From: Sanguibacter suaedae
GTDB lineage: Bacteria > Actinomycetota > Actinomycetes > Actinomycetales > Cellulomonadaceae
Length of the DNA: 64,000 nucleotides
Assembly: GCF_016342785.1 (NCBI RefSeq)
Contig: NZ_JAEINH010000005.1
Location: forward strand, 171,224-235,223
Reading direction: 5' to 3'
Shown here: one piece after another, positions 24,735 through 52,483 of the stretch
Position numbering within the stretch: the stretch's first letter is position 1
How the letters are laid out: each line of letters opens with the position of its first letter
Translations under genes and position numbers: made by a program
Notes under the pieces: generated by a model
Databases searched by the model: none
The model's input: the letters and a program-made list of their open reading frames with translations, nothing else
Told to the model about the DNA's origin: nothing

Positions 24735-26327
<1,593 letters not shown>

Positions 26328-26339
26328 GTGGGTGCACCG

Positions 26340-28556
26340 TCAGGCCAGGAGAGGCGAGGTGACTCCGCTCCACGAGACCGCGAGCTCGTCTCGTGCACGT
26401 GTCGAGGCGACGTAGAGCAGGGAACGTTCGCGGAGGATCGCGTCGTTCCATGAGCTCTCGGAGTACTTCTCGGAGCGCAGTCCTGCTGGGATGGAGCTTT
26501 CGCTCATTCCGAAGAGCAGCACGCGGGAGAACTCGGTCCCCTTGGATCGGTGCATGGTCATCACGACCGGCATGCCACCTTTGATCTCTTCGCGGTCGAC
26601 GGCTCGTGCGCCCACTCCTCGTTCTCCGAGGGCTGCGACGACTTTGTCGCGGAGGAGTCGGTCGCGGACGAGCACCGCGATGGTGTCGGGGACGACCCCT
26701 CCAGCCAACCACCCCTTGATGGTGTCGGCGGCGTGGTCGTACTCCTCGGCGATTCCGGTGCAGGCACGCAGGGACGGGACGGGCCCTGACCGCGCGGACC
26801 GGTAGTCGGAGGACTTCTCCTGCTCGTCATCGAGGTCCGTGTAGGTTCCCGGTGCGAGGACACCGAGAGCAAAGGCGAGGTTCTGGGCGGTGGTGCGGTA
26901 GTTGAGGGTCAGTCGACGTGAGCGGCCGACGATCGCGATGCCGTATCGGGAGAGCACGACCTTCTGCCCGTAGATTCGCTGGTGGGAGTCTTCGGCGATG
27001 AAGAGGTCGTCCGGGCGTTGCTCGGGTCCGGCGAGGGCACGCAGCAGCCGCCATCGTGAGGGTGTGAGGTCCTGGCCTTCGTCGACGAGGACGTGGTCGG
27101 CGACGTAGCCGCTGCCGTTCACGCTGAGCGAGTTCAGGTGCTCGGCGGCGACTGCTGCGGCTTCGTCGAAGTCCATCTGACGGTCGAGCGCTCCGTGGTT
27201 CCGGTATGCGGCGATGACTCTCCACACTGCTCGGCGTCGGGCCCGGTCCAGAGAGACGCCTCGGCCGGGCCGGCGGACCTTGAGGTACTCGGCTTCGGTG
27301 GTGATCTGTGCCGGCAGCACGACGGTCGCGTACTCGGCGTCGAGGAAGGACGCGCTGCGCAGCTCCGTGGGGAGCTCGTCGCCGTGGATGTCGAGGACCT
27401 CGTTCCAGCGGGCGTTGCCCGGTCGGAGGGCACCGACACGGGCTCCTGCACCCAGGACCGCCGCGGCGGCGACGTGTCCTGCTTCACCCGCGTGCTTGAG
27501 GACTCGGGCTGCCAGTGCGTCGATTCCTGCGACGTAGACCCCGGGGTCGCCGAGGGTGTTGGACACGGTCAGCTGGGGGTCCAACCGGTAGAGGTCTCGC
27601 TTCATCGCGTCGGCGAGGTTCGTCGTGTACGTGGTGACGATGACGCGCCGGCCCTGGCCGCTTCTCGCCAGCGATCGCGCACGGTGCAGGACGACGACGG
27701 TCTTGCCTGTCCCGGCACCACCGGAGAGCCGGAAAGGGCCCTTCCACCGTCCCGTGACGTACCGGCGCTGCTCGGGGTGGAGGAACACCCGCCAGGAGCC
27801 GAAGTCTCCTTCGTCGATCGCGCGCCGCAGCTCGTCGTTGCTCTCGATGTACGTGAACGACAGCTTGGCGGCAGCGTGGTCGAGGCCTCTGAGGATGGCT
27901 TCGTCGTCGTTCGTGGAGGCTTCGACGGGCTGGTCCAGGGCGAGCCGCTCTCGCACCTCCGCAAGGTTGTGGCCGGAGGCGAGGTCGATCAGCGCCAGGC
28001 CTTGCCACTCGACCGCGCCGCCTGCGATCTCGAGGAGGTGGTCCTCGGTCGTCGCAGCGAGCGCGGCATCGGCGAGGTCCCGGTCGATCCCGAGGAGGTC
28101 GACGAGGTCGGTGCTCGTGATTCCGAGCGCGTCGAGCACGGGGTGGGGCGCATCGTCGACGGCCTCGACGACGGGTGGTTCGCGAGGTGCCTCGGCCGGG
28201 GTGTCGTACGTCGTCTCGCTCGTGGGTTCGACGGTTCGGATCTCGGTGATCCCGTTGACGGGGTTGACGGTGAGTGTCGTCTTCTTCGCGAGAGCGATGG
28301 CGTCGTCGTGGGGCCAGATGCCGTGGAAGACGTAGGTCGGTTCGGCAGCTCCGGTGATCTTGAACAGCACTGCTCGGAAGAAGTCGTCGACCCGTCCGGT
28401 GCGCACACGCTGGTCGACGGAGTTGTGGATGGGTTCGATGTGGAGACCCGGGGAGGCGTCGTTCTCGGTGAGCTTTTCGAGGAAGGCGTAGGCCTTCTTC
28501 TTCAACGAGGGTTCGAGCTTGTTGCTCGACTTGGACATGATGATGTTGGGCATCAC
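26340..28556 (-). CDS. UvrD-type SF1 helicase with N-terminal RelE-like domain, 738 aa
   Basis: The C-terminal part is an SF1 helicase: Walker A GGAGTGKT (about residue 280), VDEGQDL Walker B (about 491), a QRIYGQK segment and a C-terminal STRARDEL motif. The first ~100 residues (LKKKAYAFLEKL, then RVDDFFRAVLFKI and VFHGIWPHDDAI) have the strand pattern and H-x-D ending of RelE/HigB-type mRNA interferases. A helical region of short hairpin-like units (about 140-215) links the two. GTG at 28556 or the ATG at 28553 can serve as the start; both overlap the stop of the YprA-type gene (4 or 1 nt). It is the last gene of the four-gene defence operon. It may unwind or sense invading nucleic acid; whether the RelE-like part cuts RNA is unknown. 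Confidence 0.85.
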   Translation of the reverse strand: MMPNIIMSKSSNKLEPSLKKKAYAFLEKLTENDASPGLHIEPIHNSVDQRVRTGRVDDFFRAVLFKITGAAEPTYVFHGIWPHDDAIALAKKTTLTVNPVNGITEIRTVEPTSETTYDTPAEAPREPPVVEAVDDAPHPVLDALGITSTDLVDLLGIDRDLADAALAATTEDHLLEIAGGAVEWQGLALIDLASGHNLAEVRERLALDQPVEASTNDDEAILRGLDHAAAKLSFTYIESNDELRRAIDEGDFGSWRVFLHPEQRRYVTGRWKGPFRLSGGAGTGKTVVVLHRARSLARSGQGRRVIVTTYTTNLADAMKRDLYRLDPQLTVSNTLGDPGVYVAGIDALAARVLKHAGEAGHVAAAAVLGAGARVGALRPGNARWNEVLDIHGDELPTELRSASFLDAEYATVVLPAQITTEAEYLKVRRPGRGVSLDRARRRAVWRVIAAYRNHGALDRQMDFDEAAAVAAEHLNSLSVNGSGYVADHVLVDEGQDLTPSRWRLLRALAGPEQRPDDLFIAEDSHQRIYGQKVVLSRYGIAIVGRSRRLTLNYRTTAQNLAFALGVLAPGTYTDLDDEQEKSSDYRSARSGPVPSLRACTGIAEEYDHAADTIKGWLAGGVVPDTIAVLVRDRLLRDKVVAALGERGVGARAVDREEIKGGMPVVMTMHRSKGTEFSRVLLFGMSESSIPAGLRSEKYSESSWNDAILRERSLLYVASTRARDELAVSWSGVTSPLLA

Positions 28557-31500
28557 TTCTCCAGGAGGGCGTCGCTGAGCGTGGGGCTATCGAGCGGAAG
28601 GACGGTCCATCCTGCGCTGACGAGGTCGGTGCGGTCTGTGTGGTCGAGGTCGTGGTCGAGTGCGACCTTCAGGGTGGGCCAGCACACGAAGACGGGGATC
28701 CCGTCTTCGACTTCTTCGCCGACCTCTGGCGCGGGGAGGCCGGCCCGTTCGAGCTGGACGAGCACCTCCCGTTCAGAGGCAGACAGGGGTGCGTGGCCCC
28801 CGGTTGCGGCGGGGTCGGCTTCGAGGATCACTCGCCACTCGTGGGCGAGGTCCACTCGTGGGCTTTGTCCGAGGGATGCGGCGGGGGTTCCGGTTGCTCC
28901 GAGGTCGATCTGGCTCAGGGCGCCGAGGACTGTGGTGTGCGTGCGTAGGTTGATGGCGTTCGACAGGTGGATCCAGCGCTGCCACGCGGCTCGGTGGTCG
29001 GGGCCGGTGACGGCTTCGTCGCGGTCGTCGAGGAGGATGGCGAGCTCGACGTTGCTGGTCTGCTCCTCCCCCTGTGCCCGGGCGAGGAGCACGAGCGGCC
29101 CTTCTCGCCATCTCCATGCGGCTGTCGTTCCCGTGATGTCGGGTTCTCCGAGGAGGTGGTGTGCGGCGTGCGTCTCGAGCGGTGTGTCGGCGTCGAGCAT
29201 GCACTGATCAGCCATGGGCGCGAAGAACCACGGCAGGGTGTCGGCGAGCTGTCTCGTGCCGGTGGTGTCGGTCTTCTGGATCCATGCCATGAGGAATCCG
29301 ATCGCTCCTCCGTTGGCGGCTTCGACAGCGGATGGCGGGAAGGTGAATCCGGCTTCCATGAGGACTTCGACGGTGTGCGAGGAGAGCCACGACGGAGCGA
29401 GCCCGTGCCCGGACCCGACGCCCGCTCCCGCCGTCTCGCTCGCTTCGAGGTCGGCGTGGGTGAGCGCAAGGACGACGTACCCCTCGTCGCGCAGCCCGGC
29501 ACGCTTCTCGGAGTCGACGGCGATGATGTTGTGCGTTGGGCTCGCGTGGTAGAAGTGCCCGTCGGTGAAGATCGCCACGCGAGGGACGTTGGGGTCGTCG
29601 CAGCGCAGCACGAAGTCGGGCTTGACCGGTCCGAGGGGCAGCTCTGGCTCGAAGGACCAACGTCGTTGGCCGCCTGGGATGGTGATCTGCAGGGTGTTGC
29701 CGTGCGGCCCTGGAAGTTCTTTGACGGTGGCGCCGAGGGCTTGGAGTCGTCGTGTGAACAGGGTGCGGAACCGGATCTCGAGCGGCGAGGCGTGGGCTCC
29801 GCTCGGCGGCTCGATCTCGGTGACGTTCCACCCTGATGCGTCGCCGGGGGCCACGGCGTGGGGATCGTCGTCCTGACCGTCAGGGCCTGGCGTTCCACCG
29901 AGCAGGATGTCTCGGAGGTGACGTTCGGCGACGGTGCGCGAGACGGTGTCCGGCCGGTTGTCGGCGAAGGGCAGCAGGCACCGGTGGCAGGCGAGGCGGG
30001 ACTCCTGCGAGCAGGGACAGTCGCGGAGGATCTGCCATGCGGTGGTGAGCACGTCCCACATCGTGTGGTGATCGCTCAGACCTGCGAGGTACCCGGTGCC
30101 GCCGGGGACCGAGTCGTGGAGGAGCAGGGCCCTCGCGGTCTGGCCCCCCGGGCCACCGGCGGTGGGTGGCAGTGGGTCGGCGATGAGCGACACCGTGATG
30201 TGGTCTGGCGAGCCGCCGAGGCGTTCGCGCAATCCCAGCATGACCGCGGCCGAGAGACTGGGTTCGGCGAACGTGTCCGCGCTGGTCACGGAGTGGGGTA
30301 GTCGGATGACGAGCCCTTGGGTCCGCAGGCTTCGGGAGAGCATGAGGTCGACTGTGCTCTCCTGGGCACTCGTCCGGTAGACGCACCAGGGTTTGTGCTC
30401 ACGCGTGTTGTTGGTGCCGTCCCCTGAGCTGAGGTGACCGCAGGCCGCGCAGACTCGGAACCCGCCGACTGGGCACTCGTTCCCGGCCACCGCGAAGGTG
30501 GATCCGAGTCCTGCGAGCTTGCCGGTGTTGAACCAACGCACGTCGAGGTGGCTGAGGTATTTCACGCCGAAGTCGTAGCCGTCCACGAACCACTGCTTGA
30601 CGATGGTGGTCGGGTCGATGTCTGCGGCGACGACGATGCTGTATCTCTGGCGAACGCGTTCGTCGCGGGCGTCACTAATGGCGGCCTCGTCGCGGCGCAC
30701 CTCGGCGGAGACGCGCCGCAGCTCGAGCGCTCTGACGCGTTGCTTGGCGTCGGCGATGTCCAGGGAGAGGCAGCGCGGGCACTGCGTCGGTGCTGGCTGG
30801 GTGGTGTGGATCTCCTGGGCGTACCCGCAGCACGGGCACAGCGACCAGTCGCGGACGTCTTGTCCGTCGGGGCCGAGGTCGACGGTGTCGACGACGATCT
30901 CCATCCCCCGGGCGTAGAAGGTCGACCCGGGGGCGAGCTCGCGGAGCGCGTTCGCGGAGGAGCGCTGGTAGTCGTAGGCCTCGCTCTCGAACTTGCCGCT
31001 GTCAGGGTCGATCCAGGTCAGCGCGACATCGAGGGTCACCGAGTCGTCGAGGAGCGTGTAGTTGGGGAGGATTCCGTACTCCTCGAGGACGGCGATCCAG
31101 TGATCGCCCCGGAGGTCCTTGAGCTGGGCGCGGAGCAGCCGAAGCGTGCCCGCAGCGGACTTGGCCGCAGCCTTGTCATCGTCGTTCGCCGCGGGGAGGT
31201 CCGCGGCGACGTTGAGCTTGGGCAGGGCCTTCTCCAGCGCCGCGATCTGGTGCTTGAGGTCTTGCACCGCGAGGTTCCACCGCGCGGAAGCGGTCTCGAG
31301 GTGCAGGCGGATTCCGCTCGACCCTGTGTCGGCGGAGGGCGTGGCCCAGCGCCGCAAGAGTGCCACCGCATCGTCGCCGAGATCGGAGAAGGCGCCGAGG
31401 AACGTATCGAGGCGTTGTTCGGCTTCTGTCTCAGCGACGGTGGCGAGCTCCCCGAGGAAGGTCCCGGGGTCGGTCTTGCTGATGGCGGCGGTCGCCTTCT

Positions 31501-34500
31501 TGGGGTGGGGGCGTGCCCTGTCGCGCGCGAAGGCGTCGACCAGGTGGGCGGTGTACTGGCGGCGGAGGATCTCTTCGGCTGACAGGTAGGTGGCGGGAGG
31601 TCGCACCTGGCCGTTGATCATCGACAGGGGGTCACCGAGCCGCGGGAGGTGCTCGCCGCGTCCGGTGACGAACGCCAACGACAGGGCGTTGCCGGTGAGG
31701 CGCCCGGCTCGTCCGATGCGTTGCAGGTAGGAGGCGACGGTGCGTGGGAGCGATGAGAGGAGGACTGTCGAGAGGTCCCCGATGTCGATCCCCATCTCGA
31801 GTGTCGGGGTCGCGACGAGGACGTTCGGAGCGTCCGGGCTTGCTTCCCCGACCTTGAACTCGTTCTCATACCGCAGCCGTGTCTCGTCGTCGAGGAGGCT
31901 GGAGTGCTCTCGGGCGACGATCCGGCGCATGTCGGCGGAGGCATAGAGGGTGCGGTAGAAGTTGGTGTCCTGGCGTTCGGGGCGGATACGGCCGGGACAC
32001 CGGCCGAGCATGCACGGTGCGCCGTCCATCTGTCCGTGGACCTCGACGGTCACGGGTACCTGGTGCCGGCACGTGTCGCAGACGAGGAGGTGCCTGCCCG
32101 CGGCAAGATCCTCGTCGGTTGTGGGGTGGACGACGACGCCGCTGGCCGGGATCGCGTACACGGTACCGGTCTTGGTGGGGAGAGCCGTGAGCACGCCCTC
32201 TCGCGTGAGTGCGTCGAGGAGCTGGCGGGCGAGGACTCCAGCGAAGTGCACGGGAACCGAGAGGGTGCGCGCGGTCCACTGGGTGTACCAGCTCTGCGGG
32301 CTGGTGACGGAGTCCAGGAGCGGATCCTTGGTTCCTGTGGCCGGTCCGGTGCGCGGGAAGGCTGGGGCGGAGCGTCCCGGCGGGAATGCGGGCATCCCTT
32401 GGTTCTTGGTGCGCCCGCCCCACAGGCGGTATCTGTTGCCGTCCTCGCCGATGTACTTGGCAAACCACTCGTGCTGGATCGCTCCGCGCTCGCGCATGCG
32501 CTCGAGGGTCCCGCGGACCCACCGGACCAGATCGGCGTCGCCAACGGTGACGAGGCCTTCACCGAGGTGTTCTTGGCTCGACCCATCGGTGAGGACACGA
32601 CGCCCGATGGTTGCGAGCCGCGCGGGAGTACCTGCTTCGACGCCGATGGCTACCGACCCGGTGGCCTCGAGCGTGCGCCCGATGCGCGAGAAGAGGCCGA
32701 CCTCGAGGATGGTGTCGAACAGCACTCGGCGCCGGACGTTCTTTCGCACCCCAACCGGAATGGTGAGCTGCCGGTCTGCCGTCCAGAACGTCTTGAAGCC
32801 GGTGGTGTCGACGAGATCGGGGTGCAGCATGCGGTATCGGCGGAAGGGGTCGTCACCGGCTTGTCGCATGGCTTCGTCGACGATCTCGTCGACGGATCGG
32901 GGCATGTCTCCGACGGCTGCGCGGAGTACTGCGCGCATGGTGAGTGTGTGGGATCGCGCTTCGACGAACCCGGCGCGGTGTGCGGCGTCCTGGACTGAGT
33001 CGGTGAAGACGAGGGCCTTCTTCTCTGCGGCGTCGAGCTGGGCGTCTCCGAAGAGCGTCGAGAGGGTCACGGAGAGCAGGGTGGCGATCGCGGATCCGAG
33101 GAAGCGGATTCCGTCGCGTTGCTGGCAGGAGGGGCAGTGGTCCTTCATGGAGAGGTCGTCTGCGTCTGGTCCCACCTGGGTGAGGACGGGGAGGATCCAG
33201 CCGTCGAGCAGGTCGGGGTCGTCGTCGGCGGGGGGCGCGGTGAGGAAGGTGCGCTGGCGGACATGGAGCCAGGCGAGGTTGGTGGTCTCCGGGTCTGGTC
33301 CGGCCTCGTTGAAGAGCGAGTGGTCGGCTTCTCCGGGTGCGAAGAGCAGCGCGCGGAACCGTCCTTTGCGTGATGCGTGGTTGCGGCGGATCGACGTGTC
33401 GTCCGTGTGCAGGTCGTGACCGACGGGTGCGAGCTCGACGCCCCATCCTGAGCGCCCGCAGTGCCGGCAGTACAGGGCGGGAAAGGCGGGGCGTCCTTCC
33501 CATGCGAAGGCGTCGGACTCCCCCAGTTCCACTCCCCCGTCGTCGCTCCACAGATATTTGGTGGTCGCGGCGGCGACACGGTCGATTCGGGTGAGCTCAC
33601 GCACCCACATGTGGAGGTCCACGGTGAGCGCTGGGCGCCCGGAGATGGCGCGGACGTGCGAGAGGGCGGCGGTGAGGTGCACGAGCATCGCGAGGGCGTG
33701 CTCCGTGGTGATCGTCGTGCGGTGTTCGAGGAACAGCTCGTCGGCGAGGACGTCGAGGGCCTGGGCTTCGGAGGTAGCTCGCACGAGCTGCTGCACGGCG
33801 GGATGCGCTTTGGCGAGGTCGAGGAGTGACACGGAGCCAGCACCAATAAGGGCATGAAGTGTTGCTTGGTCGACGCCGAAGGCGGCAGCAAGGAACGTCG
33901 TGGCGAGGTCAGGGCTGTCGTGGACTGCGTCGAGCTTCTCGATCAGCTCGGGGTGGTCGAGGTCCGCGAGGGCGACGGGGCTCAGTCCTGCGGCGCGCAC
34001 GCGGTGCGCAGCGGCGGCGTCTGCCCATCCGTCGAGGGTGAGTCTGGATTCTCCGACGACTGTGGTCGCGTCGAAGGTCTCACCGAAGACGGTGGTCGCG
34101 AAGTCGAGCATGACTTGCGGGTCGCCTTTGTCGCCGAGCGTCGCCGATGTGGCGATGGGCGTGATGCGACCGAGTGGGCGCGCGTGGTCTTCCGCTGAGA
34201 GGCCGGCTGCGTCGAGGGCATGGGCATCCGTGGGCCAGGACGCTTTGAGGGTGATACCGAGGCGCCGCAGCAGCATGGCGACGTCGGTGCCTTGCGCTCC
34301 GTCGTAGGTGTGGAACTCGTCGAGGACGAGGTACTGGAGCGACGTGGCGCTCTGCTGCCAGAGGTGGTGATCTTCGTGGCGGAGCAGGAGCTGGTCGAGC
34401 ATCTTGTAGTTGGTGAGCAGGATGTCTGGCGGGGTGTCGCGGATGACGACACGGTCGGTGATGAGGCCCTCGGCGGTGACGACGGTGCGGACTTCGTCCT

Positions 34501-35032
34501 GCTGCCCCGTGTAGAGGGCGGCAGTCACACCGGCGAGCTCGGGGCGTGTGGTGATGAGCTCTGCCAGGCGGGCGGCTTGGTCGTTGGCGAGGGCGTTCAT
34601 CGGGTAGAGGATGAGCGCTTTGATGCCGGGAGTGTTGTTGCGGCGCGCGCGGAGCACGTGGTCGAGGATTGGGAAGAGGAATGCCTCCGTCTTCCCCGAC
34701 CCTGTGCCGGTCGTCACGAGAGTTGGCTCAGGGCGGCGTGGTTGGCCTGCGGGGGTGATGCTCACGAGCCTGCTGAACGCTTCAGCTTGGTGCCGGTACG
34801 GCGGGTAGGGCAACTCCCACGACAACAACCGGTCCCATCCGGGCGGGGCTGGTTGAAAGGGCAGCCGGAGCCGAAGGTAGGGGCCTTTGAAGATGCCGGA
34901 GGCCGGCTCGGTGAGGAAGTCGTGCAGGGCGCGGCGGGCGTCTGCATCGGCGAGGGCGAAGGTTGTGGTCAGGTAGTCGAGGAGGCCCGACTGGATTTGC
35001 TCAGCCTGCCGGGTGGGCAGCAGCTCGCTCAT
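28553..35032 (-). CDS. YprA-family DEAD/DEAH helicase with DUF1998 and C-terminal nuclease-like domain, 2159 aa
   Basis: This is a very large SF2 helicase. The N-terminal helicase core has TGTGSGKT (residues 108-115) and DEFH (238-241). The second RecA lobe is near 1060-1120, with TPTLEMGIDIGDL and QRIGRAGR. A DUF1998/MZB-type region follows, with Cys pairs (CACCGYAQ-like near 1410 and CSQESRLACHRC near 1677) that should bind zinc. The last ~400 residues begin with a PD-(D/E)XK-like module: Glu in SPLEIRF, then KPDFVL, then AIFTDGHFYH with a later Lys. This architecture is shared by helicases of DISARM-related systems and Druantia. Start and stop each overlap the neighbouring gene by 4 nt, so translation is coupled. 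Confidence 0.88.
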   Translation of the reverse strand: MSELLPTRQAEQIQSGLLDYLTTTFALADADARRALHDFLTEPASGIFKGPYLRLRLPFQPAPPGWDRLLSWELPYPPYRHQAEAFSRLVSITPAGQPRRPEPTLVTTGTGSGKTEAFLFPILDHVLRARRNNTPGIKALILYPMNALANDQAARLAELITTRPELAGVTAALYTGQQDEVRTVVTAEGLITDRVVIRDTPPDILLTNYKMLDQLLLRHEDHHLWQQSATSLQYLVLDEFHTYDGAQGTDVAMLLRRLGITLKASWPTDAHALDAAGLSAEDHARPLGRITPIATSATLGDKGDPQVMLDFATTVFGETFDATTVVGESRLTLDGWADAAAAHRVRAAGLSPVALADLDHPELIEKLDAVHDSPDLATTFLAAAFGVDQATLHALIGAGSVSLLDLAKAHPAVQQLVRATSEAQALDVLADELFLEHRTTITTEHALAMLVHLTAALSHVRAISGRPALTVDLHMWVRELTRIDRVAAATTKYLWSDDGGVELGESDAFAWEGRPAFPALYCRHCGRSGWGVELAPVGHDLHTDDTSIRRNHASRKGRFRALLFAPGEADHSLFNEAGPDPETTNLAWLHVRQRTFLTAPPADDDPDLLDGWILPVLTQVGPDADDLSMKDHCPSCQQRDGIRFLGSAIATLLSVTLSTLFGDAQLDAAEKKALVFTDSVQDAAHRAGFVEARSHTLTMRAVLRAAVGDMPRSVDEIVDEAMRQAGDDPFRRYRMLHPDLVDTTGFKTFWTADRQLTIPVGVRKNVRRRVLFDTILEVGLFSRIGRTLEATGSVAIGVEAGTPARLATIGRRVLTDGSSQEHLGEGLVTVGDADLVRWVRGTLERMRERGAIQHEWFAKYIGEDGNRYRLWGGRTKNQGMPAFPPGRSAPAFPRTGPATGTKDPLLDSVTSPQSWYTQWTARTLSVPVHFAGVLARQLLDALTREGVLTALPTKTGTVYAIPASGVVVHPTTDEDLAAGRHLLVCDTCRHQVPVTVEVHGQMDGAPCMLGRCPGRIRPERQDTNFYRTLYASADMRRIVAREHSSLLDDETRLRYENEFKVGEASPDAPNVLVATPTLEMGIDIGDLSTVLLSSLPRTVASYLQRIGRAGRLTGNALSLAFVTGRGEHLPRLGDPLSMINGQVRPPATYLSAEEILRRQYTAHLVDAFARDRARPHPKKATAAISKTDPGTFLGELATVAETEAEQRLDTFLGAFSDLGDDAVALLRRWATPSADTGSSGIRLHLETASARWNLAVQDLKHQIAALEKALPKLNVAADLPAANDDDKAAAKSAAGTLRLLRAQLKDLRGDHWIAVLEEYGILPNYTLLDDSVTLDVALTWIDPDSGKFESEAYDYQRSSANALRELAPGSTFYARGMEIVVDTVDLGPDGQDVRDWSLCPCCGYAQEIHTTQPAPTQCPRCLSLDIADAKQRVRALELRRVSAEVRRDEAAISDARDERVRQRYSIVVAADIDPTTIVKQWFVDGYDFGVKYLSHLDVRWFNTGKLAGLGSTFAVAGNECPVGGFRVCAACGHLSSGDGTNNTREHKPWCVYRTSAQESTVDLMLSRSLRTQGLVIRLPHSVTSADTFAEPSLSAAVMLGLRERLGGSPDHITVSLIADPLPPTAGGPGGQTARALLLHDSVPGGTGYLAGLSDHHTMWDVLTTAWQILRDCPCSQESRLACHRCLLPFADNRPDTVSRTVAERHLRDILLGGTPGPDGQDDDPHAVAPGDASGWNVTEIEPPSGAHASPLEIRFRTLFTRRLQALGATVKELPGPHGNTLQITIPGGQRRWSFEPELPLGPVKPDFVLRCDDPNVPRVAIFTDGHFYHASPTHNIIAVDSEKRAGLRDEGYVVLALTHADLEASETAGAGVGSGHGLAPSWLSSHTVEVLMEAGFTFPPSAVEAANGGAIGFLMAWIQKTDTTGTRQLADTLPWFFAPMADQCMLDADTPLETHAAHHLLGEPDITGTTAAWRWREGPLVLLARAQGEEQTSNVELAILLDDRDEAVTGPDHRAAWQRWIHLSNAINLRTHTTVLGALSQIDLGATGTPAASLGQSPRVDLAHEWRVILEADPAATGGHAPLSASEREVLVQLERAGLPAPEVGEEVEDGIPVFVCWPTLKVALDHDLDHTDRTDLVSAGWTVLPLDSPTLSDALLEK

Positions 35033-38000
35033 GCCTGAGCCGCCTCGAGATCTACGGCCTGACCCTGCTCTTCGAGGATCCGCTCGAAGTGTGTGTAGGC
35101 AGCTCGCATGTCTGCTTCTCGATCAAGAAAGGTGAAAGGCAGCTCGTAGACGTAGGTGTTGCCTGCCGGGTTCGTGGCGGTGCGCTCCTCGAGGGTGAGC
35201 GCGTCGCCCTTCTTCCGCCAGGCAGTGCGGACCGGTGTCGGGACAAGACGACCGTTGGCGTCGTAGAGGTAGTCGTTGCGGTCGTAACCGACGAGGACAG
35301 GGAACTGAGTGCGGTAGATCGAACACAGCTCGTCAGCGGTGACACCCAGCATGAGGGCAACGATCGCGTCGATCTCGACAAGAGCTTGGCGGCGGTCGAT
35401 GGCGCGGCGGAGGGGGGTGTCGGAGGTCCAACGAGAGCCGACATCGCCAAGAGCTTCCGTGAGGCCACTTTTCGCGTGACCGATTATAGCCCATTGATCG
35501 CGGGAGAAGGCGCCATCATAGGCTCCTTCCCATAAGTCCGCATAGGCCTCGCTCACGCAGTTCAAGCGAAGCGACCTCAAACGTAGATTAGCACCGAACA
35601 CGTGATCACCCACATAGGGCAACCGGCTTGCAGAGCCAATTCGGATCGTCGACTTGGGGGCAACCCGAATAGCAAAATCACTGAGCAATGATGACATAAA
35701 ACCAGCAATTCCAGCCAGAGCAGCACCCGTGCCGCCGGGAAGCCCAGCCGAGTAGATTCCATCGACGTGCGCCGCGCCCGGCGGGATCATCGAAGGAATC
35801 AATGTTCGTTCACCAGTGTTGGCCGCCATGCAACGCCAGGCGACGCGGTAGTGGTCGCGGGCGGGGTTGGGTTCTTCTTCGGTGCCCCAGTCGGTGTAGG
35901 CGACGTCGTACTCGTAGTCGTCGCCCGCACGCTTGTAGGACGTGACCGGGATCGCGTCGGGAGCCAGGGTCTCGAAGTCTGTCGCCGACCAGTCGAGGTG
36001 GTGAAGCAACGTGGAGTTTGGATTCTTATATAGAGGGGTAGCAACATACAAGTGTGGACCCTGGAGGATCACGTCATCCCATGAGCCAGGGGCGCCCCAC
36101 CGCGACTCAAAATAGCCCTTGGTGCGGTCGTTCTTCTCGTGCCAGCCGGACGAAAACTTCAGATCGAGAGTTCCGATGCGCGGCGCCTTCGAGAGCTTGC
36201 CCAGCACATCAGATACCGATCTATTGACGGTGTACAGCATGCGAGTGCGCATGACAGGGACATCCGTCGACTCGAGGACGGCGTGCCAGGTCTTCAAGAC
36301 CGCCTCGTCCACGGTGATGACGCGACCAACGTGCGGCCGCTGATCCCACTTTCCTTCATCATCCTTAATTCCAGGCTCTACGCCATCGCCGTTGTGGGAA
36401 AGCGACCTACCGACCATGTCCGGATGATATAGAGATACCGCATGCAAGAAACTTACTGATTCCCGCTCCGGACCGTAAACATTCACTCCGTAAGTCTTCT
36501 GATGCTGTATTTCGAACAGGCTGAGCTCATTAATGAACTGCCAATGGCGCCGAGTGCGCCGGTACACCGCAGACCGCAGCAATCCAGCTTTTTCGTCTGT
36601 GAAGTGTGATTCTAGGTGAATCAACACCTGGACCCCCGTTGGCGCCCCATGACGCCATACCTTCTCCATGAAGCAGCGGTAGAGGTCGGGTTGCAAACCT
36701 GCTAGATGCGGATATTCCAACTCAGATCCCACGAATGCTGCAGTTGCTGTAACCTCGCTCGTCTCGTCGAGAACCAAGTCCTTGATCCCCGGGACGGTCA
36801 GAGTCTCGACGCGCTTTATCGCGCGGACCCGTTCGCTGGGTTTGAGCTCCAGCTGCCACCAGGGGTCGCCCTCAGCAAGCAGGGCGTCCACGTCGGAACG
36901 TGGCCGCACCCACGGCGGGTTCCCGACCTGGAGGTCGAACCCGCCGCGCGCGAAGACGGTTGCGAAGTCGAGCTCCCAGTGGAAGAAGCCCTGCTGGGCG
37001 GCGATACGCTCCGTGACCTGGAGCCACGGGTGGCGGGTCAGCACGCCCTCGACGTCGCGGGCACCGACAAAGCGCCGCTCGAGCTCCTCTGCCTCACCCA
37101 GCTCGTCCCAGCTCAGGCTAGACCCGAAGGTCGAGGACTGGCGGGGCTTCGCCAGCGCGGACTCCGAGTGGGACCCGAGGAGCTCCTGCAGGCCGGCGAT
37201 CCACTGATCAACGGTGGGCGGCGCGACAAGGAGCTCCCCACCATCAGTCGTCACACGGCGCGCGTCCTCAGTCAGTGGCCAGAACCACAGGGCACACCAG
37301 GCATCCATGACTCGGCGCAGTCGCTGATAGGAGCCGTCACGGTCAGCGAGCGCCTCCTCGATCTCCTCCCGGCTGACGACCGGGCCGCTGTCAGACCCTG
37401 CGCCGGTCGTGTCACGGCCCCACACGTCGATCGAGCGGCGGATGGCGTCCTCAGCGATCTGGCGACGACGCAGGGCCAGCTGCCACAGCTCCTCGACGCG
37501 GTAGCCGAGGATGACCAAGGCGTCCAGCTGCTTCTTCGTGGGCTTGGTGAGAACAGACTTGCGCCACATGTTCAGCGCCGCACGGGCGTCCGGCGCCAGG
37601 TCCTTGGCTTCCTTCGCTTCGGTGGCCGACCCCCAACCAGCGGCAGGGAGCAAGAAGTGGTGGATCCGACCGGAAACCTCGGGGCCGACGGTGCCCTTCT
37701 CAGCATCAGCGGCGAGCGACACTACGCTCGCCTCGGTCGCAGCAGTCTTCAACCACGACTTCGCGACGACCTGCGCGAGGGAATAGGTGGCGCGGCGGGC
37801 GCCGATGAGGGAGTTGCCACGGCGCAGGTGCAGACCGAACCATGGCGCCTGCAATCCGGCGACCATCGTGTCGAGCCAGAGCGAGATCTCGGCGAGCTCG
37901 ATCGCGGTCGCGTTGAGGTCCACCCCGTACACGTTGTGCAGTGCGATGTACGCCTTGGTGCGCTGCAGCTCGATCGGGTAGGCGTCGGGGTCGATCTTCT

Positions 38001-39789
38001 CGCCGAGCTCGCGCTGGCGCTTGGTGAGGTACTGCTCGGCGAGCTGTCGCACCGCCTCGATCGCGAACGCCCCAGAGCCCAGCGCGGGCTCACAGACCGT
38101 CATCGACAAGATGTCCTCGGCGGTGTGCTCGTCGGTCACGAGCTCCTCGAGAGCCTGCCCTACGGTGAAACGGGTCAGCACCTCAGGGGTGTAGTAGGAC
38201 GCCGACTGCTGACGGTCACGGCCCGCCAGCCGGTAGACGAACGTCCCCGCTCGGTGGCGGACAGCCCGCTCCTCCCCCGTGGCCTCAACCTTCTCCATGA
38301 CAAAGTCCTTGTCGGAGATGCCCGCGCTGCAAGCAACCGGGACCACCCACGAGCCCTTCTCCGCATCACCGCCCTTGGCCACCTCGAAGAGGTCCTCCGT
38401 CGCGAAGAACCCCGTGTAGCTCATGAGGCCCTCATACACCGCACCGAGCTGGTTGATGCCGAGCTCGGCGTACGAGATGAAGCCGCGGTCCTTGCCCCGT
38501 GACTCCTTGCTCAGCAGCAGCTTGCCCAGAACCTGCTGGAGGGCCAGGTTGCCCAGACCGACCTCGTCGATGAGGGCGATCGCTTCCGGGCGGAAGAGGT
38601 CGGCGCGCAGGCTGTTGAACTCCAGGCCCTCGACAGCGGAGCCACCCGCGGTGCCCTCGCTCACGCCCGCGTCGTCCGCACCCTGGTCACCATGCCCGCG
38701 ATCGACCAGGTCGAACAGCACCCCGAGCGAGTCGAAGAGGTGCGTCCCGACCTCCGCCCGCGGGGTCGCCAGTTTGACCAGAGTCAGCTCACGCAGGCGA
38801 TCGATGCTGTACCCCTGTTCGTATTCACCCGCCCCTACAGGAAGGACCTTGAGCTCAGGAGACGCCTCGGCGTAGAGGAGAAAGAGGATGCGGTAGAGGT
38901 ACCGCAACGACTGGGTCGCGAGCACCTGCCCATACGAGGCATCGAGCGGACCGAGACCCTGCGCCGACCGTCGAGCGAGCACCTCGTTCGCGATGATCTC
39001 GATCGAGCGCCGCACCCCCTCCCGCAGGTCCTTCGAGACGCCGACCGTGTGCTTGACCGAAGCCTCCTGGACACCTGTCCACCAGATCACGCCATCGGCA
39101 TCCGGAGCGAGTGACTCGACACCGACGCACGCGATCGCCCGGTCCAGCTCCCCGCCCCGCCTGGTGTCGTTGCGCTCGGCCACCAGCTGCAGGTCGACCG
39201 CCAGGTAGCGGCCCTCCGGCCACCGCTCCTTGTCCGTGATGAGCAGCCATCGGCCGGCCAGCACCAAGGCGAAGTCAGGTCCGTCGTCGCGCACGAAGAA
39301 GGCCGAGAGCAGACGCGACGCGGACGTGATCGCGGGCGCGTCGTCAACGGCGAAGGGCTCGAGGAGCGTGAGCGCGTCCTTCTCCAGCAGCTCCTCGATC
39401 GCCGCAACCGGCCGCGCCTCCACGATGATGAGCGGCGCACCGTCGCCAACCCCCGGAGTGGAGACCTTGCGGACACCGCACTCCTCCTCGATCACACGCC
39501 CAGGACCGGTGTACCCGAGGACGTCGAGCAGGCGGGCGTAGACGTCATGCACCGCGTCGACACTGACAGCCACGCCACCCTCAGGAGTGAGGAGACCACC
39601 CAGGAGCGTCTCGATCTCCCCGCGCGCCCCCGTGAAGACGGCCCGGGCGGACACCCCGTGCTCGGTAGCATCCCAGGCCTTGCGGCGTTCGAGGACCTTC
39701 GCCTGGAAGGACTCCTTCGTCGCATCGGTCGTGAAGTAGTGCTCGGAGATCCAGTCCTCACCGATCACCAGGGCATCGCTGGCCGCCAT
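35029..39789 (-). CDS. Large DNA adenine-type methyltransferase (DrmMI/PglX-like), 1586 aa
   Basis: This is an Eco57I-class SAM-dependent N6-adenine-type methyltransferase. The SAM motif is CEPALGSGAF (about residue 566), preceded by the family's SYYTPEVLTRF. The catalytic motif IV is NPPW (about 956). The N-terminal ~500 residues are helical with no nuclease signature that I can see. The C-terminal third, expected to hold the target-recognition region, is encoded by lower-GC DNA (about 35450-36740) unlike the rest of the gene. In DISARM-like systems such an enzyme marks self DNA. It overlaps the upstream SNF2 gene by 1 nt (TGATG) and the downstream YprA gene by 4 nt. The recognition site cannot be read from sequence. 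Confidence 0.9.
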   Translation of the reverse strand: MAASDALVIGEDWISEHYFTTDATKESFQAKVLERRKAWDATEHGVSARAVFTGARGEIETLLGGLLTPEGGVAVSVDAVHDVYARLLDVLGYTGPGRVIEEECGVRKVSTPGVGDGAPLIIVEARPVAAIEELLEKDALTLLEPFAVDDAPAITSASRLLSAFFVRDDGPDFALVLAGRWLLITDKERWPEGRYLAVDLQLVAERNDTRRGGELDRAIACVGVESLAPDADGVIWWTGVQEASVKHTVGVSKDLREGVRRSIEIIANEVLARRSAQGLGPLDASYGQVLATQSLRYLYRILFLLYAEASPELKVLPVGAGEYEQGYSIDRLRELTLVKLATPRAEVGTHLFDSLGVLFDLVDRGHGDQGADDAGVSEGTAGGSAVEGLEFNSLRADLFRPEAIALIDEVGLGNLALQQVLGKLLLSKESRGKDRGFISYAELGINQLGAVYEGLMSYTGFFATEDLFEVAKGGDAEKGSWVVPVACSAGISDKDFVMEKVEATGEERAVRHRAGTFVYRLAGRDRQQSASYYTPEVLTRFTVGQALEELVTDEHTAEDILSMTVCEPALGSGAFAIEAVRQLAEQYLTKRQRELGEKIDPDAYPIELQRTKAYIALHNVYGVDLNATAIELAEISLWLDTMVAGLQAPWFGLHLRRGNSLIGARRATYSLAQVVAKSWLKTAATEASVVSLAADAEKGTVGPEVSGRIHHFLLPAAGWGSATEAKEAKDLAPDARAALNMWRKSVLTKPTKKQLDALVILGYRVEELWQLALRRRQIAEDAIRRSIDVWGRDTTGAGSDSGPVVSREEIEEALADRDGSYQRLRRVMDAWCALWFWPLTEDARRVTTDGGELLVAPPTVDQWIAGLQELLGSHSESALAKPRQSSTFGSSLSWDELGEAEELERRFVGARDVEGVLTRHPWLQVTERIAAQQGFFHWELDFATVFARGGFDLQVGNPPWVRPRSDVDALLAEGDPWWQLELKPSERVRAIKRVETLTVPGIKDLVLDETSEVTATAAFVGSELEYPHLAGLQPDLYRCFMEKVWRHGAPTGVQVLIHLESHFTDEKAGLLRSAVYRRTRRHWQFINELSLFEIQHQKTYGVNVYGPERESVSFLHAVSLYHPDMVGRSLSHNGDGVEPGIKDDEGKWDQRPHVGRVITVDEAVLKTWHAVLESTDVPVMRTRMLYTVNRSVSDVLGKLSKAPRIGTLDLKFSSGWHEKNDRTKGYFESRWGAPGSWDDVILQGPHLYVATPLYKNPNSTLLHHLDWSATDFETLAPDAIPVTSYKRAGDDYEYDVAYTDWGTEEEPNPARDHYRVAWRCMAANTGERTLIPSMIPPGAAHVDGIYSAGLPGGTGAALAGIAGFMSSLLSDFAIRVAPKSTIRIGSASRLPYVGDHVFGANLRLRSLRLNCVSEAYADLWEGAYDGAFSRDQWAIIGHAKSGLTEALGDVGSRWTSDTPLRRAIDRRQALVEIDAIVALMLGVTADELCSIYRTQFPVLVGYDRNDYLYDANGRLVPTPVRTAWRKKGDALTLEERTATNPAGNTYVYELPFTFLDREADMRAAYTHFERILEEQGQAVDLEAAQA

Positions 39790-42686
39790 CAGTTCGTTCC
39801 TTCGTTCGACTCGACCGCGTGGTCCAACGGCACCAAGACCACCAGAGGGCGCACCAGGCGCTGCGAGGGAGCCATCTGCTCCACGAGCTCGCGTTCCTTC
39901 TCCACGCTCACGCGACGGACCTTGAGGTCCGAACGTTGGATGAGGGCATCAGCCTCGTCCTCCCACGTGGAGAGACGGTGCGACCACTGATCCACCCGCT
40001 GGGCAGCAGAATCGGAGGCGGCTGCGAACAGCTGCTCCATCTCGACCTGCGCGGCACGGACCGCGGGAGCAACCAGAGCCGTCAAGGCATCCACCCCAGC
40101 CACCGCTCCATGGTTCGAGCGCCGCTCGTGGAGCCCCACCGACGCGAGCATCTCCGCAGACGACGAGAACTGCGTCTGCAACGCGAAGTCGGTGTTCGTC
40201 GGGTTCGGGAACTCCACGGACGCGAAGGACGACGCAACCATCTGCCCACGCCTGTTCGTCAACGTCCCGACCAGAAGAACAGTCGGATGGTCGACCGGTC
40301 CGCGAACCGCGAAGACCGAATCCCGATCCAAGCTCGCCAGCGCGCGGTCAGCGGCCCAGTCGAGGACCGGGTGCAACGCACCGAGGTAATGCGCCTCCGG
40401 CCACGTGGACCCCTCGTCCTGCAGCGCACGCGCAAGCGTCTCCTTGCCCCGCGCCTTCGTCACAGCAAGCATGAAGCGCTCAGTGACCTTCCGCTCCGAC
40501 AGGTAGCTCTGCGGCAAGTCCTCGAGGCGGCGCGCCAAGTCTGGGGGCGGAGTCAGCTCCACCAGGGAGTGCGTCGGATGCTCGGACCACCCCACCCCGC
40601 CCGGCAGAGCGTGCGCCGGGGATGCGTACGACTCGGTGAGGGCATCGCGAAGGAAACTCAGGTCGTCAGGGTAGAGACCCGTCGAGCCAGCCTGGGGCCC
40701 GGTCTGCACGATCCCGGCAGACGGCGTCGCGCTGGCCGAGGCCGACTTGTTCAGGCGGGCGAAGAGCCCTGCGACCGTACCCTGGGAAGCAACCTGATCG
40801 GCATCGTGCACCACCGTCTCAAGAGCCACGTCGCCAGCCAAGACGCTACGGATCGCCTTCTCCTCGGCCTCCACGTCGTACTTCCCCATGAGCGACGCCG
40901 CGTCCCCCAGCGCACTGTGCGCCTCGTGCTCCTTCTCGATGAGCTTGGTGAGGACCCGGACGTCACCGGAGAAGTGACCGCTCGTCGGCTCGAGGAGCAA
41001 GGACGTGATCTGCGGTGAATGGCGCTGGCCGTACCGGTCGATGCGGCCGTTGCGCTGCTCGATGCGGATGAGGCTCCACGGGATGTCGAAGTGGATGAGC
41101 TCGTGGCACTGCAGGTGCAGGTTCACGCCCTCCGACGCGACGTCTCCGGTGACCAGGACGCGGATGTCCGAGGACGCCTGCTTGAAGGACTCGATGATCG
41201 CCATCTGCTCGACGTCCGTCAGGCCACCGTGCAGCACCTGGACCTGATCGGCAGACATCTTGAGGTCCTTGCGCAGCCGGTCCCGCAACCAGTGCAGTGT
41301 GGGAACACGTTCAGCAAAGATCACCGCTCGTTCCGGCGTGCCCTTGGCAACCCCGATCCGGTGCAGCTCGTCGAGCAGCGCGTCGTACTTGGCTGAGGTG
41401 CCGCTCACCGCCGTCGTGCTCAACGTGAGGAGGCGCTCCAGCGCCTCCTTCTCCGGGTTGGTGTGCCCGGATGCGGGCTTGATGCGCTTGAGCCGCTCGG
41501 TGACGGTGGCCGTGAGAGCAGCCGGGGAGGAGAGGAAGGCCTTCGCGAGTGTCCAGGGGAAGAGCGAGTTGCTCGCCCCCGGTGCGCTACCGGACGAGGG
41601 GTGCAACCACGTGTCGCTCAGCTCCGTCGCGATCGCGTCCTCGACCGGGGAGGCCTGGACCAGGCGATTGACAGGTTCCTTGCGTGGCGCCCACGCTCCA
41701 CCCACGACCTTTGCGACCTCGGGGCTGTTGCGGTGACGACGCACCACGAGGCGCTTGACCTCGTCCTCGATGACCTTGCCGTCCGGTGCCACAGCGGTCG
41801 GTTCGAGCAGGCGGATGAGCTCGGCGAAGGACTCAGCTTTGCCGTTGTGCGGGGTCGCAGAGGCCAGGATGAGCGCCTCGGTGTTGGGGGCGAGGATCCG
41901 CGCGAGTCGGTTGTTCTGCGCGGAGGAGTTGGTGATGTTGTGCGACTCGTCGATGACGACCGCATCCCAGCGTTGCTTGCGCAGGTGCTGGATGTACTTC
42001 TCGGACTTCAGCGTGTCGATCGAGATGATGACGCGCTTGTAGAACGCGAAGGCGTTGCGCGTGGCCGGCAGCTTCTGTCGGATGCGCTGGATGCCCTGGC
42101 TGTCCAGCCGGATGAACGGCAGCGCGAACCGCGACCACATCTCGTGCTGCATCTGCTCGAGCACGTGGCGCGGGGTCACGATGAGGATCCGGTCACCTCG
42201 ACCGCGACGCACCAGCTCGGAGAGAATCATGCCGATCTCGAGGGTCTTGCCCAGGCCCACAGCATCCGCCAACAGCACCCGAGGGCGCAGGTTCGACGTG
42301 TCGAGAGCCTTCCGGACCGCGATTCGCTGGTACTCCAGCGGGTCCGCGAGCGCAGCGTCAGCCACGGTAAGGGAGTCGTCGTCCAGCGGGATGGCGGTCT
42401 TGCGGAGGGTGGACTCGAGCCAGAGGCGCGCCCTGCGGTACTCAGACGACGCATCGGCCTTCACCGTGGTCGCCGACGGGTCGAACGGCACGATGGTGTC
42501 GAGGCTGTCGTAGAACATGGCCGTGGTGTCACGCACCAGCTCTGAGAGGCCCTGGACCGTGATGAGCGGGCCGTCAGCCGTCTGGTCCACGCCGGTGACC
42601 AACCAGTCCTCGTCGCGGACCCGGACCACCGATCCCGGTGCGACGTTGAGCGTGGTGACGGTCCCGGCAGCTGCACTCATGCACAT
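39789..42686 (-). CDS. SNF2-type helicase (DrmD-like), 965 aa
   Basis: This is an SF2/SNF2-family DNA-translocating ATPase. Walker A lies in DAVGLGKTLEIG (about residue 145), Walker B is DESH in VVIDESHNIT (about 247), and motif III is SATPHNGK. The second lobe has VTGDVASEGVNLHLQ and the motif VI-like RIEQRNGRIDRYGQ. The N-terminal ~60 residues form a small barrel-like part (VAPGSVVRVRDEDWLVTGVDQ). Class 1 DISARM systems carry an SNF2 helicase called DrmD, which this most resembles in architecture. It is the promoter-proximal gene of the leftward operon. ATG at 42686 or 42680 can be the start. Confidence 0.88.
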   Translation of the reverse strand: MCMSAAAGTVTTLNVAPGSVVRVRDEDWLVTGVDQTADGPLITVQGLSELVRDTTAMFYDSLDTIVPFDPSATTVKADASSEYRRARLWLESTLRKTAIPLDDDSLTVADAALADPLEYQRIAVRKALDTSNLRPRVLLADAVGLGKTLEIGMILSELVRRGRGDRILIVTPRHVLEQMQHEMWSRFALPFIRLDSQGIQRIRQKLPATRNAFAFYKRVIISIDTLKSEKYIQHLRKQRWDAVVIDESHNITNSSAQNNRLARILAPNTEALILASATPHNGKAESFAELIRLLEPTAVAPDGKVIEDEVKRLVVRRHRNSPEVAKVVGGAWAPRKEPVNRLVQASPVEDAIATELSDTWLHPSSGSAPGASNSLFPWTLAKAFLSSPAALTATVTERLKRIKPASGHTNPEKEALERLLTLSTTAVSGTSAKYDALLDELHRIGVAKGTPERAVIFAERVPTLHWLRDRLRKDLKMSADQVQVLHGGLTDVEQMAIIESFKQASSDIRVLVTGDVASEGVNLHLQCHELIHFDIPWSLIRIEQRNGRIDRYGQRHSPQITSLLLEPTSGHFSGDVRVLTKLIEKEHEAHSALGDAASLMGKYDVEAEEKAIRSVLAGDVALETVVHDADQVASQGTVAGLFARLNKSASASATPSAGIVQTGPQAGSTGLYPDDLSFLRDALTESYASPAHALPGGVGWSEHPTHSLVELTPPPDLARRLEDLPQSYLSERKVTERFMLAVTKARGKETLARALQDEGSTWPEAHYLGALHPVLDWAADRALASLDRDSVFAVRGPVDHPTVLLVGTLTNRRGQMVASSFASVEFPNPTNTDFALQTQFSSSAEMLASVGLHERRSNHGAVAGVDALTALVAPAVRAAQVEMEQLFAAASDSAAQRVDQWSHRLSTWEDEADALIQRSDLKVRRVSVEKERELVEQMAPSQRLVRPLVVLVPLDHAVESNEGTN

Positions 42687-42953
42687 GATCCTTGCTCTGG
42701 CGACGCGGACGCGTCATCTCCCCTGATCCACGCCCCTCGATGGTCGCCGATAACAGGCTGACCACAGGGAACGTTCACAACGCACTCTATCCACAAGGAG
42801 AGGCCGTACGGTTCAGGCGCCATGAGGAGAACCGCGTCTCACCCGGTACAGCTGCTGGCTGCTCCAGGGGTGATTCACCCCAGCTCCATCTGAGCAGCTC
42901 TACACGGCGTCGGTGGATCCCACTAGCCTTCCGCATATCCCCCAGGAGGCAGA
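42687..42953. promoter_or_regulatory. Divergent control region of the accessory island, with nested inverted repeats
   Basis: This 267-bp gap separates the leftward DISARM-like operon from the rightward HelD-like/DUF4011 pair and must contain both promoters. A perfect dyad GGGGTG-ATT-CACCCC (42867-42881) lies inside a wider inverted pair GCTGCTC (42858-42864) and GAGCAGC (42892-42898). This could be an operator or a leader hairpin. A ccaggagg ribosome-binding site precedes the 42954 start. I cannot place -35/-10 boxes with confidence. Confidence 0.5.
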
Positions 42954-50647: not shown

Positions 50648-50691
50648 GTCGTCGAACACCCGCTATACGATAGGAAGATGAGGAGAGCGGC

Positions 50692-51294
50692 ATGAAGGCA
50701 AAATTGGATGACGGCAGAATCGTCCATCTCAACGAAGATGGCACTTGGAGTTTCGTCGACGGTTCAGGACAGGCTCTCATTACGTCGGAACATGGATTCC
50801 GTCGAGCGAAATGGGGACAGAGCAAATCAGATGTCTTAAGGATCGAAGACAGCGAGCCCACGCTACACAAAAGCGATGCGCTTGGATACTTGGGGAAGAT
50901 CGCAACCTTCGATTGTTTTATTTTCTACACGTTTGTCGATGATCGGCTTGCCAATGGCAGATACGCCTTGAGGGAAGAGCATTCGAATCTGAACTTTCAC
51001 TTGTCGGATTACGAGACCCTAGAGACTTTACTCACCAAGAAGTACGGGCCTTGCACAGAGCAGCAAGAGTTTTGGAGCGACGATCTCTACCGTGATGATT
51101 ACTCGCAGTGGGGCCAGGCGGTTGCGTACGGCCACTACCTCAAACTAACACGATGGTCGGGACCAGAGACTGAGGTCAAACTTGGAATCTCGGGAGACAA
51201 TTTCGAGGTCCACGTGTACATTGATTATTTCGCGACGGCGCTCGAAGATGTGTTACACAGCAAGAGGCAGGATCGCTACCTGGAGGACCTCTGA
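50692..51294 (+). CDS. Lower-GC orphan hypothetical protein, 200 aa
   Basis: I do not recognise a function. The N-terminus KAKLDDGRIVHLNEDGTWSF is a small beta motif seen in several unrelated small proteins. The rest is a soluble alpha/beta protein rich in Asp, Tyr and Trp, without signal peptide or membrane segment. Codon use differs from the neighbours: the stretch 50701-50760 is 29/60 G+C by my count, against about 70% in chromosomal genes of this window. It lies 44 bp behind the DUF4011 gene on the same strand, preceded by atgaggag, and could be its third cistron or independent cargo. Confidence 0.7.
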   Translation: MKAKLDDGRIVHLNEDGTWSFVDGSGQALITSEHGFRRAKWGQSKSDVLRIEDSEPTLHKSDALGYLGKIATFDCFIFYTFVDDRLANGRYALREEHSNLNFHLSDYETLETLLTKKYGPCTEQQEFWSDDLYRDDYSQWGQAVAYGHYLKLTRWSGPETEVKLGISGDNFEVHVYIDYFATALEDVLHSKRQDRYLEDL

Positions 51295-51629
51295 TCACAG
51301 TGGATCTTTCACCACCATGGGTTGCCCCAAACGATTAACACAAGTTCTTCATTAGCCTTCACATCTAGCACCGCACAAGGTTGCAATCGGCGAGCGGTTC
51401 GGCTTCACGAGCTTCTCGTCCCATGTCGTTCCCAACACAGTGGTCACCGTCAAGTGAGTATGCGCCGTCAGACCTCAAGCCGGGCGAGACGGGTGCCATC
51501 GAACCATCCGCCACCTTGTACTTCCGGGCGGTGACGGACTTCCCGCTCGTCGCCGGGTCCCAGGAGTTCCCGACCGACGACTGAGGATCTCGGCGCCCAC
51601 CGCCCGTCAGTCTGGACCGAGACCGACTG
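51295..51629. other. Intergenic region at the right border of the island
   Basis: In this 335-bp stretch I see no convincing gene, tRNA or integrase site. A plus-strand frame at 51381-51584 (67 aa, ending QEFPTDD) has no clear ribosome-binding site and no recognisable domain; it may be a gene remnant. Composition changes from lower-GC on the left to normal high-GC on the right, so the island border probably lies here. Confidence 0.4.
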
Positions 51630-52400: not shown

Positions 52401-52483
52401 GCGGGACAGCCTGCCACAGGGATCCTGCGCATACCGCAATGGTGCGATGTCGCTCTCGGGACCTAGGACCCACTCCCGCCTGA

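Follow-up and report, generated by a model that had tools for sequence, protein, structure and literature searches.

What kind of defence system is encoded by the four large, overlapping genes at positions 26340-42686 of the 64,000-nucleotide window of Sanguibacter suaedae DNA analyzed here (contig NZ_JAEINH010000005.1, positions 171,224 to 235,223)? We conclude, with a probability of about 97%, that this segment holds an ARMADA type II anti-phage operon with all four of its genes (armA-armB-armC-armD) intact. This type of system has already been published, in 2025, as ARMADA type II, and the present operon is an actinobacterial example. Its genes are as follows.

39789..42686, minus strand: armA, SNF2/RapA (BrxHII-like) helicase, 965 aa
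35029..39789, minus strand: armB, PglX-like (Eco57I/MmeI-type) DNA methyltransferase, 1586 aa
28553..35032, minus strand: armC, YprA-family helicase-nuclease, 2159 aa
26340..28556, minus strand: armD, RelE-like domain fused to a GajB-like UvrD helicase, 738 aa

The open reading frames (ORFs) all lie on the minus strand in the order armA-armB-armC-armD, and none of the four contains an internal stop. Successive genes overlap by 1 nt (armA/armB), 4 nt (armB/armC) and 4 nt (armC/armD), the last shrinking to 1 nt should armD, which begins GTG-ATG, start at its ATG; the single strand and the junctions of 1, 4 and 4 (or 1) nt reported in a first-pass annotation of this DNA agree exactly with the ORF coordinates. 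Pfam finds SNF2 and Helicase_C domains in ArmA, an Eco57I-type methyltransferase in ArmB, DEAD, Helicase_C and MZB domains in ArmC, and UvrD in ArmD. The gene order agrees with that of ARMADA type II, BrxHII/RapA-like - PglX-like - YprA-like - RelE-UvrD (Bell et al. 2025, PMC12458937), and the name ARMADA, which the first-pass annotation had put forward, was the right one. It had also suggested that the RelE-UvrD gene might mark a distinct subtype. The gene does mark a subtype, but not an undescribed one; it is the hallmark of type II (PMC12458937), so the operon belongs to a kind already described, and we dropped the idea of an undescribed subtype since published ARMADA type II has RelE-UvrD.

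The 2023 PADLOC library splits the system among four names, with best matches to DrmD for ArmA, a type IIG enzyme for ArmB, DruE for ArmC and NERD-UvrD/GajB for ArmD; because the four genes thus receive four different system names, no single entry recognizes the whole. The match of ArmB to the type IIG model PDLC03611 spans its whole length (1454.7 bits), as it would if ArmB worked by itself as a type IIG restriction-modification enzyme beside unrelated helicases. That explanation is highly improbable given where ArmB is found. Relatives of ArmC over most of its length occur in 14 of 221 family genomes, and in all 14 operons ArmD follows within 66 bp while ArmB and ArmA stand upstream in the same order; because the order A-B-C-D is kept throughout, the association is not due to chance, and the conservation of the four genes as a unit that had been anticipated is borne out. 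ArmB is also in place in the annotated copies from Escherichia coli, Streptomyces, Microvirga, Haematobacter, Pseudanabaena and Martelella. Two of the family operons have damaged frames, with ArmB split in two in G129 and one TGA inside the ArmD match in G058 (G, C and L numbers are our handles for genomes, contigs and loci).

The interval between armB and armC varies in length. Seven of the 14 family operons (G058, G118, G122, G125, G141, G146, G166) have 2.5-12 kb of other DNA there, and among the listed loci from named genomes with enough flanking DNA (n=55), ArmB is directly before ArmC in 28 and not in 27, in most of which it falls beyond the flank covered. The gap looks like a cargo slot. 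Extra DNA at this position is also seen in L077 and L080, and two of the inserts are DUF262/HEC-06/mREase_IV-like.

The Sanguibacter operon retains each of the eight residues that were mutated in the E. coli system. In ArmA these are the Walker A K147 and Walker B D246 (E. coli K136 and D236), in ArmB G571 of the S-adenosylmethionine (SAM) motif and N957 of the NPPW motif (G605 and N971), in ArmC K114 and D238 (K110 and D234), and in ArmD K285 and D492 (K266 and D454). Residue numbers in L065, a plasmid copy from E. coli, agree exactly with those published for strain NCTC 12900. Of 5426 complete E. coli genomes, 528 have a match to the 16 kb of that copy, and in 513 of these the match covers at least 80%. 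Identity to the Tsukamurella proteins is 44% for ArmA, 47% for ArmB and 37% for ArmD.

The first-pass annotation had proposed placing the large helicase on a YprA-family tree, and we built one from the RecA1 and RecA2 helicase cores (41 rows, 471 columns), with the DrmA rows left out because the DrmA RecA1 domain is not reliably alignable. Rather than falling outside the YprA/DISARM/Druantia groups, ArmC lies in a 28-member type II clade (support 97/100) that spans two E. coli copies together with cyanobacterial, alphaproteobacterial and other actinobacterial members. Three actinobacterial proteins (G162, L237, L238), which we term ARMADA I-like, fall in a second clade (99/85) with the type I protein of the archaeon Natrinema. 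Five actinobacterial DruE-like proteins cluster with E. coli DruE and one further protein (93/86), the latter two being long branches; ArmC is outside this group, and the fork that unites the type II and DruE groups is supported at 92/68 only. In phage records no ArmC match was found at E≤1e-30. Four IMG/VR contigs predicted to be viral (L257-L260) carry ArmC-ArmD pairs that are closest to the E. coli reference.

A rival reading, a DISARM variant with DrmA fused to DrmB and DrmC lost, would account for the homology of ArmA to DrmD and of ArmB to DrmMI (PADLOC 300.3 and 156.5 bits), but it is scarcely credible for the rest of the operon. ArmC is far closer to the PADLOC model for DruE (280.4 bits) than to that for DrmA (70 bits), and the NCBIfam cut-offs are missed both by ArmA for DrmD (331.8 bits against 610) and by ArmC for DrmA (23.4 bits against 999). 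Eight DrmA proteins score 1.9-9.2 bits with the RecA1 core profile and 21.8-31.5 bits with that for RecA2, far below the Sanguibacter ArmC (373 and 271 bits), on profiles that favour ArmC by construction, having been built from ArmC and DruE-like proteins. None of the six island proteins scanned with PADLOC matches DrmB or DrmC, and the earlier statement that this is not classical DISARM therefore stands.

The ARMADA type II assignment carries expectations for the C-terminus of ArmC, a Vsr-type nuclease, and for the N-terminus of ArmD, the two regions covered by our structure models; BrxA-like, beta-barrel and MarR-like inserts would further be expected in a type II ArmC. The domains of ArmC are:

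34256..34729, minus strand: DEAD domain, residues 102-259 (Pfam)
31697..31915, minus strand: Helicase_C domain, residues 1040-1112 (Pfam)
29975..30256, minus strand: MZB zinc-binding domain, residues 1593-1686 (Pfam)
29453..29779, minus strand: Vsr/MTES_1575-like nuclease, about residues 1752-1860 (motif alignment and profile comparison)

MZB is the DUF1998-type part, which in DISARM is carried by a separate gene (PMC12458937). In an alignment of 39 ArmC C-termini (the last 460 residues) P1805, D1806, D1824, H1829, D1840 and R1844 are invariant, and at E≤0.1 Pfam matches MTES_1575 in 17 of them (best 5.3e-5) and Vsr in one (0.0078). Profile comparison of the ArmC C-termini with the MTES_1575 nuclease of a neighbouring ProA-like protein gives 92% probability; the predicted structure has a pLDDT (predicted local distance difference test) of 86.4, and a search of PDB sequences with the C-terminal profile returned chance-like matches only. 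The C-terminus is thus predicted to be a Vsr-type nuclease, as expected of ARMADA type II.

The corresponding expectation for ArmD is an N-terminal RelE-like domain, located as follows.

28227..28547, minus strand: RelE/YoeB/YafQ-like fold, about residues 4-110 of ArmD (predicted structure and fold search)

An AlphaFold2 model of residues 1-250 has a mean pLDDT of 92.6, and in a Foldseek search of the PDB the first 17 rows are taken up by small YoeB/ParE/YafQ/RelE-type toxins (probability 0.92-1.00 at E 0.012-0.08), with no PDB match reaching E 0.001. The Sanguibacter ArmD N-terminus has no Pfam match, and its profile gave chance-like matches only in a PDB sequence search. The modelled fold agrees with a RelE-like domain, as expected of type II. 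Among 113 ArmD homologues, R55 is conserved in 111, R61 in 112, and H83 and D84 in 111 each, and 20 of 20 homologues that adjoin other systems retain them; the four residues could form an RNase-like site.

ArmD is not confined to ARMADA II. Among up to four candidates scored in each of the 221 family genomes there are 26 homologues above 550 bits, the next best reaching 168.6 bits; 14 adjoin ArmC, one is a tandem second copy (G166) and 11 are elsewhere, all within 10 kb of another YprA-type locus. Five of the 11 adjoin DISARM class 1 at gaps of 3-168 bp, three by DrmD (G210, G163, G170) and two by DrmC (G194, G190); three adjoin a TmtA-like - UvrD - DrmA - DrmB set (G184, G164, G172; 146-1280 bp); one, in G162, is separated by 29 bp from a YprA gene of ARMADA I-like type; and the last two, in G117 and G191, are 7-10 kb from a large gene that precedes a DruE-like gene, with the DruE-like gene itself 12-14 kb away. 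PADLOC was run on representative loci, to which the remaining ArmD loci were matched locally.

A profile scan of named genomes, from which 80 loci were kept of at least 411 relatives, gives a similar range of neighbours. Among these 80, ArmC is upstream on the same strand in 60, within 300 bp in 58 of these (three of the 58 have broken or cut ArmC frames); four are within 10 kb of DISARM genes (L180, L225, L227, L235), two adjoin the TmtA-DrmA set, one of them from the same genome as G164, two are near ARMADA I-like genes (L237, L238), and three are near DruE-like or type I-like genes or their neighbour (L187, L212, L226); L226 owes its label to a fragment at a distance of 9 kb, for which the type I-like protein is the nearest reference. 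The other nine have none of these systems in the flank covered, which on the left is under 500 bp in four and under 3.5 kb in two more. A tree of 113 ArmD proteins requires at least six changes between 'ARMADA II' and 'other system'; it is a quick tree, with a simple model and Shimodaira-Hasegawa-like approximate likelihood ratio test (SH-aLRT) support only, and includes at least two same-genome pairs (L162/G204, L199/G164).

Some of these proteins are longer. Eight ArmD homologues have more than 120 additional C-terminal residues, and in all five of the long-tailed proteins scanned, RelE-UvrD proteins of 952-1000 aa (L083 from G166, L090 from G117, L097 from G184, L100 from G172 and L103 from G164), HisKA_3 is above the Pfam cut-off, with HATPase_c below the cut-off in four. 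Three of the five genes are divergent from a TmtA-like - UvrD - DrmA - DrmB operon. In G166 (L083:4020-9273) the tandem ArmD pair has the histidine-kinase-like tail on its second member, which clusters with non-ARMADA II ArmD proteins.

In the main text of Bell et al. RelE comes up three times, always in connection with type II (PMC12458937), and among the papers listed by a full-text search none reports ArmD outside ARMADA II in its title or abstract opening. The occurrence of ArmD beside other systems is the part of this analysis that may be new. We tentatively propose, at a little short of an even chance, that ArmD is a portable module recruited repeatedly by YprA-family systems (ARMADA II, ARMADA I-like, DISARM class 1, the TmtA-UvrD-DrmA-DrmB set and DruE-like loci), with one lineage bearing a histidine-kinase-like tail, and that it acts as a common accessory, for example by processing RNA or R-loops at attacked DNA or by sensing attack.

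The TmtA-like protein (1596 aa in L097) recurs with a UvrD helicase, DrmA and DrmB in L097, L100-L101, L103-L104 and L233, a set that differs from that of classical DISARM. Directly before the DruE-like genes there is a large gene encoding 1060-1483 aa (L089:8071-12522, L187:17152-20523, L091:2971-6159, L107:1692-4874, L099:7056-10385), for which there is no PADLOC match in the two scanned (L089, L187) and no Pfam match in L089. We considered DruH for this gene and dropped it, as neither L089 nor L187 matches the PADLOC DruH model, with which E. coli DruH itself scores 2540 bits, and none of the five is similar to E. coli DruH; these loci may represent a DruE-like system with an unnamed partner gene. 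In L107 and L086 (G133) the DruE-like gene and its preceding large gene are divergent from, and about 250 bp from, armA of an ARMADA II operon, an arrangement that recalls the E. coli Druantia-ARMADA layout.

How the Sanguibacter operon would act is suggested by two related systems. E. coli ARMADA II requires all four genes and protects against 13 of 80 phages, and infected cells stay intact with minimal dye uptake, indicating direct, non-abortive defence (PMC12458937). DruE, a relative of ArmC, is reported to load on 3' single-stranded DNA (ssDNA), to assemble on long ssDNA and to cut long DNA (PMC13192584). From these E. coli results and DruE biochemistry we infer every individual biochemical role of ArmA-D, and the mechanism as a whole, a direct and non-abortive attack on phage DNA intermediates, has in our view an even chance of being right. 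ArmB would methylate host DNA at a putative motif, or sense unmodified DNA, to discriminate self from non-self. ArmC would load on the 3' ssDNA of phage replication intermediates, translocate by its YprA core and cut with its C-terminal Vsr-like nuclease, and ArmA, as a RapA-like double-stranded DNA translocase, would remodel or scan the target. ArmD would unwind by its UvrD motor and bring in the RelE-type RNase-like domain, perhaps against transcripts on the attacked DNA.

Two elements of this scheme have rivals. Discrimination may be methylation-guided, and the loss of protection in the E. coli NPPW mutant N971A (PMC12458937) speaks against a methyltransferase that is merely a sensor or loader and no epigenetic marker, with discrimination coming from DNA structure alone. 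We regard that alternative as unlikely but worth keeping in mind, since the E. coli SAM-binding mutant G605A loses only part of its activity (PMC12458937), and DruE is proposed to recognize DNA architecture and not sequence (PMC13192584). The second rival makes ArmD the effector: on sensing, the RelE-like domain would break down RNA of the host or of the phage, and defence would be partly translational or abortive. The toxin-like fold with its conserved R55, R61, H83 and D84 and the presence of ArmD homologues beside several other systems would suit such a role, but the intact E. coli cells with their minimal dye uptake do not, and we think it distinctly improbable.

Returning to ARMADA type II, the best explanation taken whole, operon identity together with proposed mechanism, is probable, and several points weigh against it. 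The four proteins share only 31-34% identity with those of E. coli, the Sanguibacter ArmC C-terminus itself has no Pfam match, and a PDB fold search with its model gave no convincing match. The mutants named in the main text of the E. coli study leave out the RelE-like domain, the partial activity of G605A in ArmB is paralleled by that of the ArmD Walker B mutant, and cultures still lyse at the highest phage doses (PMC12458937). We encountered no activity report for an actinobacterial ARMADA in the literature.

The operon is part of a larger insertion, the features of which are:

26287..52453, unstranded: inserted island of about 26.2 kb, sized against G203
24612-26327: left flank, ABC-F ATPase gene
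52575-54782: right flank, which we take from its sequence to be nrdD
42954..45182, plus strand: HelD/HelR-like superfamily 1 gene, divergent from armA and not part of ARMADA
45179..50647, plus strand: ProA/Hhe-like helicase-nuclease (DUF4011, AAA_11/12, MTES_1575, DUF3320), not part of ARMADA

Three relatives have an empty site, with the ABC-F gene and nrdD apart by unmatched DNA of 86 bp (G203), 336 bp (G205) and 283 bp (G206). In 2-kb steps the G+C fraction is 0.60-0.68 in the island and 0.66-0.79 outside. G207, with ArmC 82% and ArmD 80% identical, has its ARMADA at C13:64-80 kb and the orthologous ABC-F site at C13:227-229 kb; because its operon is at a different site, the operon moves. 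Pfam scans of eight island ORFs revealed no recognizable integrase, and the left island edge shares no exact repeat of more than 9 bp with 50641-52700. There is a tRNA-Leu call at 7901, 18 kb from the island edge.

The HelD-like and ProA/Hhe-like genes overlap by 4 nt, and the ProA/Hhe-like protein is under the NCBIfam cut-offs for both ProA (1174.6 against 1500) and Hhe (776.4 against 2000). A close ProA is present in three of the 221 family genomes, each with a close HelD directly before it, and the HelD-ProA pair directly follows ArmD in G010 and in Pseudarthrobacter (L188). ProA genes at L179, L226 and 5 further loci of the order have no HelD directly before them.

These findings confirm published ARMADA type II in an actinobacterium. 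The wider interest is in ArmD: if DISARM, both ARMADA types and DruE-like systems do share a single RelE-UvrD protein, the role of the RelE-type domain in DNA-targeting defence becomes directly testable. Among known systems the operon is most like ARMADA type II of E. coli NCTC 12900 and ATCC 8739, with which it shares gene set, strict order, domain types, the eight mutated residues and helicase clade, although the E. coli operon sits in a Zorya-Druantia-ARMADA array and its Sanguibacter counterpart is neighboured by the HelD-like and ProA/Hhe-like genes. ARMADA type I, represented by an archaeal Natrinema plasmid, likewise has ArmA-, ArmB- and ArmC-type genes, but the Natrinema copy has no following UvrD gene, its helicase falls in a separate YprA clade, and in type I the YprA gene generally comes first (PMC12458937). 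DISARM class 1 resembles the operon in its DrmD-like and DrmMI-like genes and a YprA-family helicase, and differs in having DrmA and DrmB separate and DrmC present, with DrmA distant from ArmC. Druantia III shares the YprA core architecture common to DruE and ArmC, but consists only of DruE and DruH, and its DruE carries PLD nuclease domains and lies outside the type II clade.

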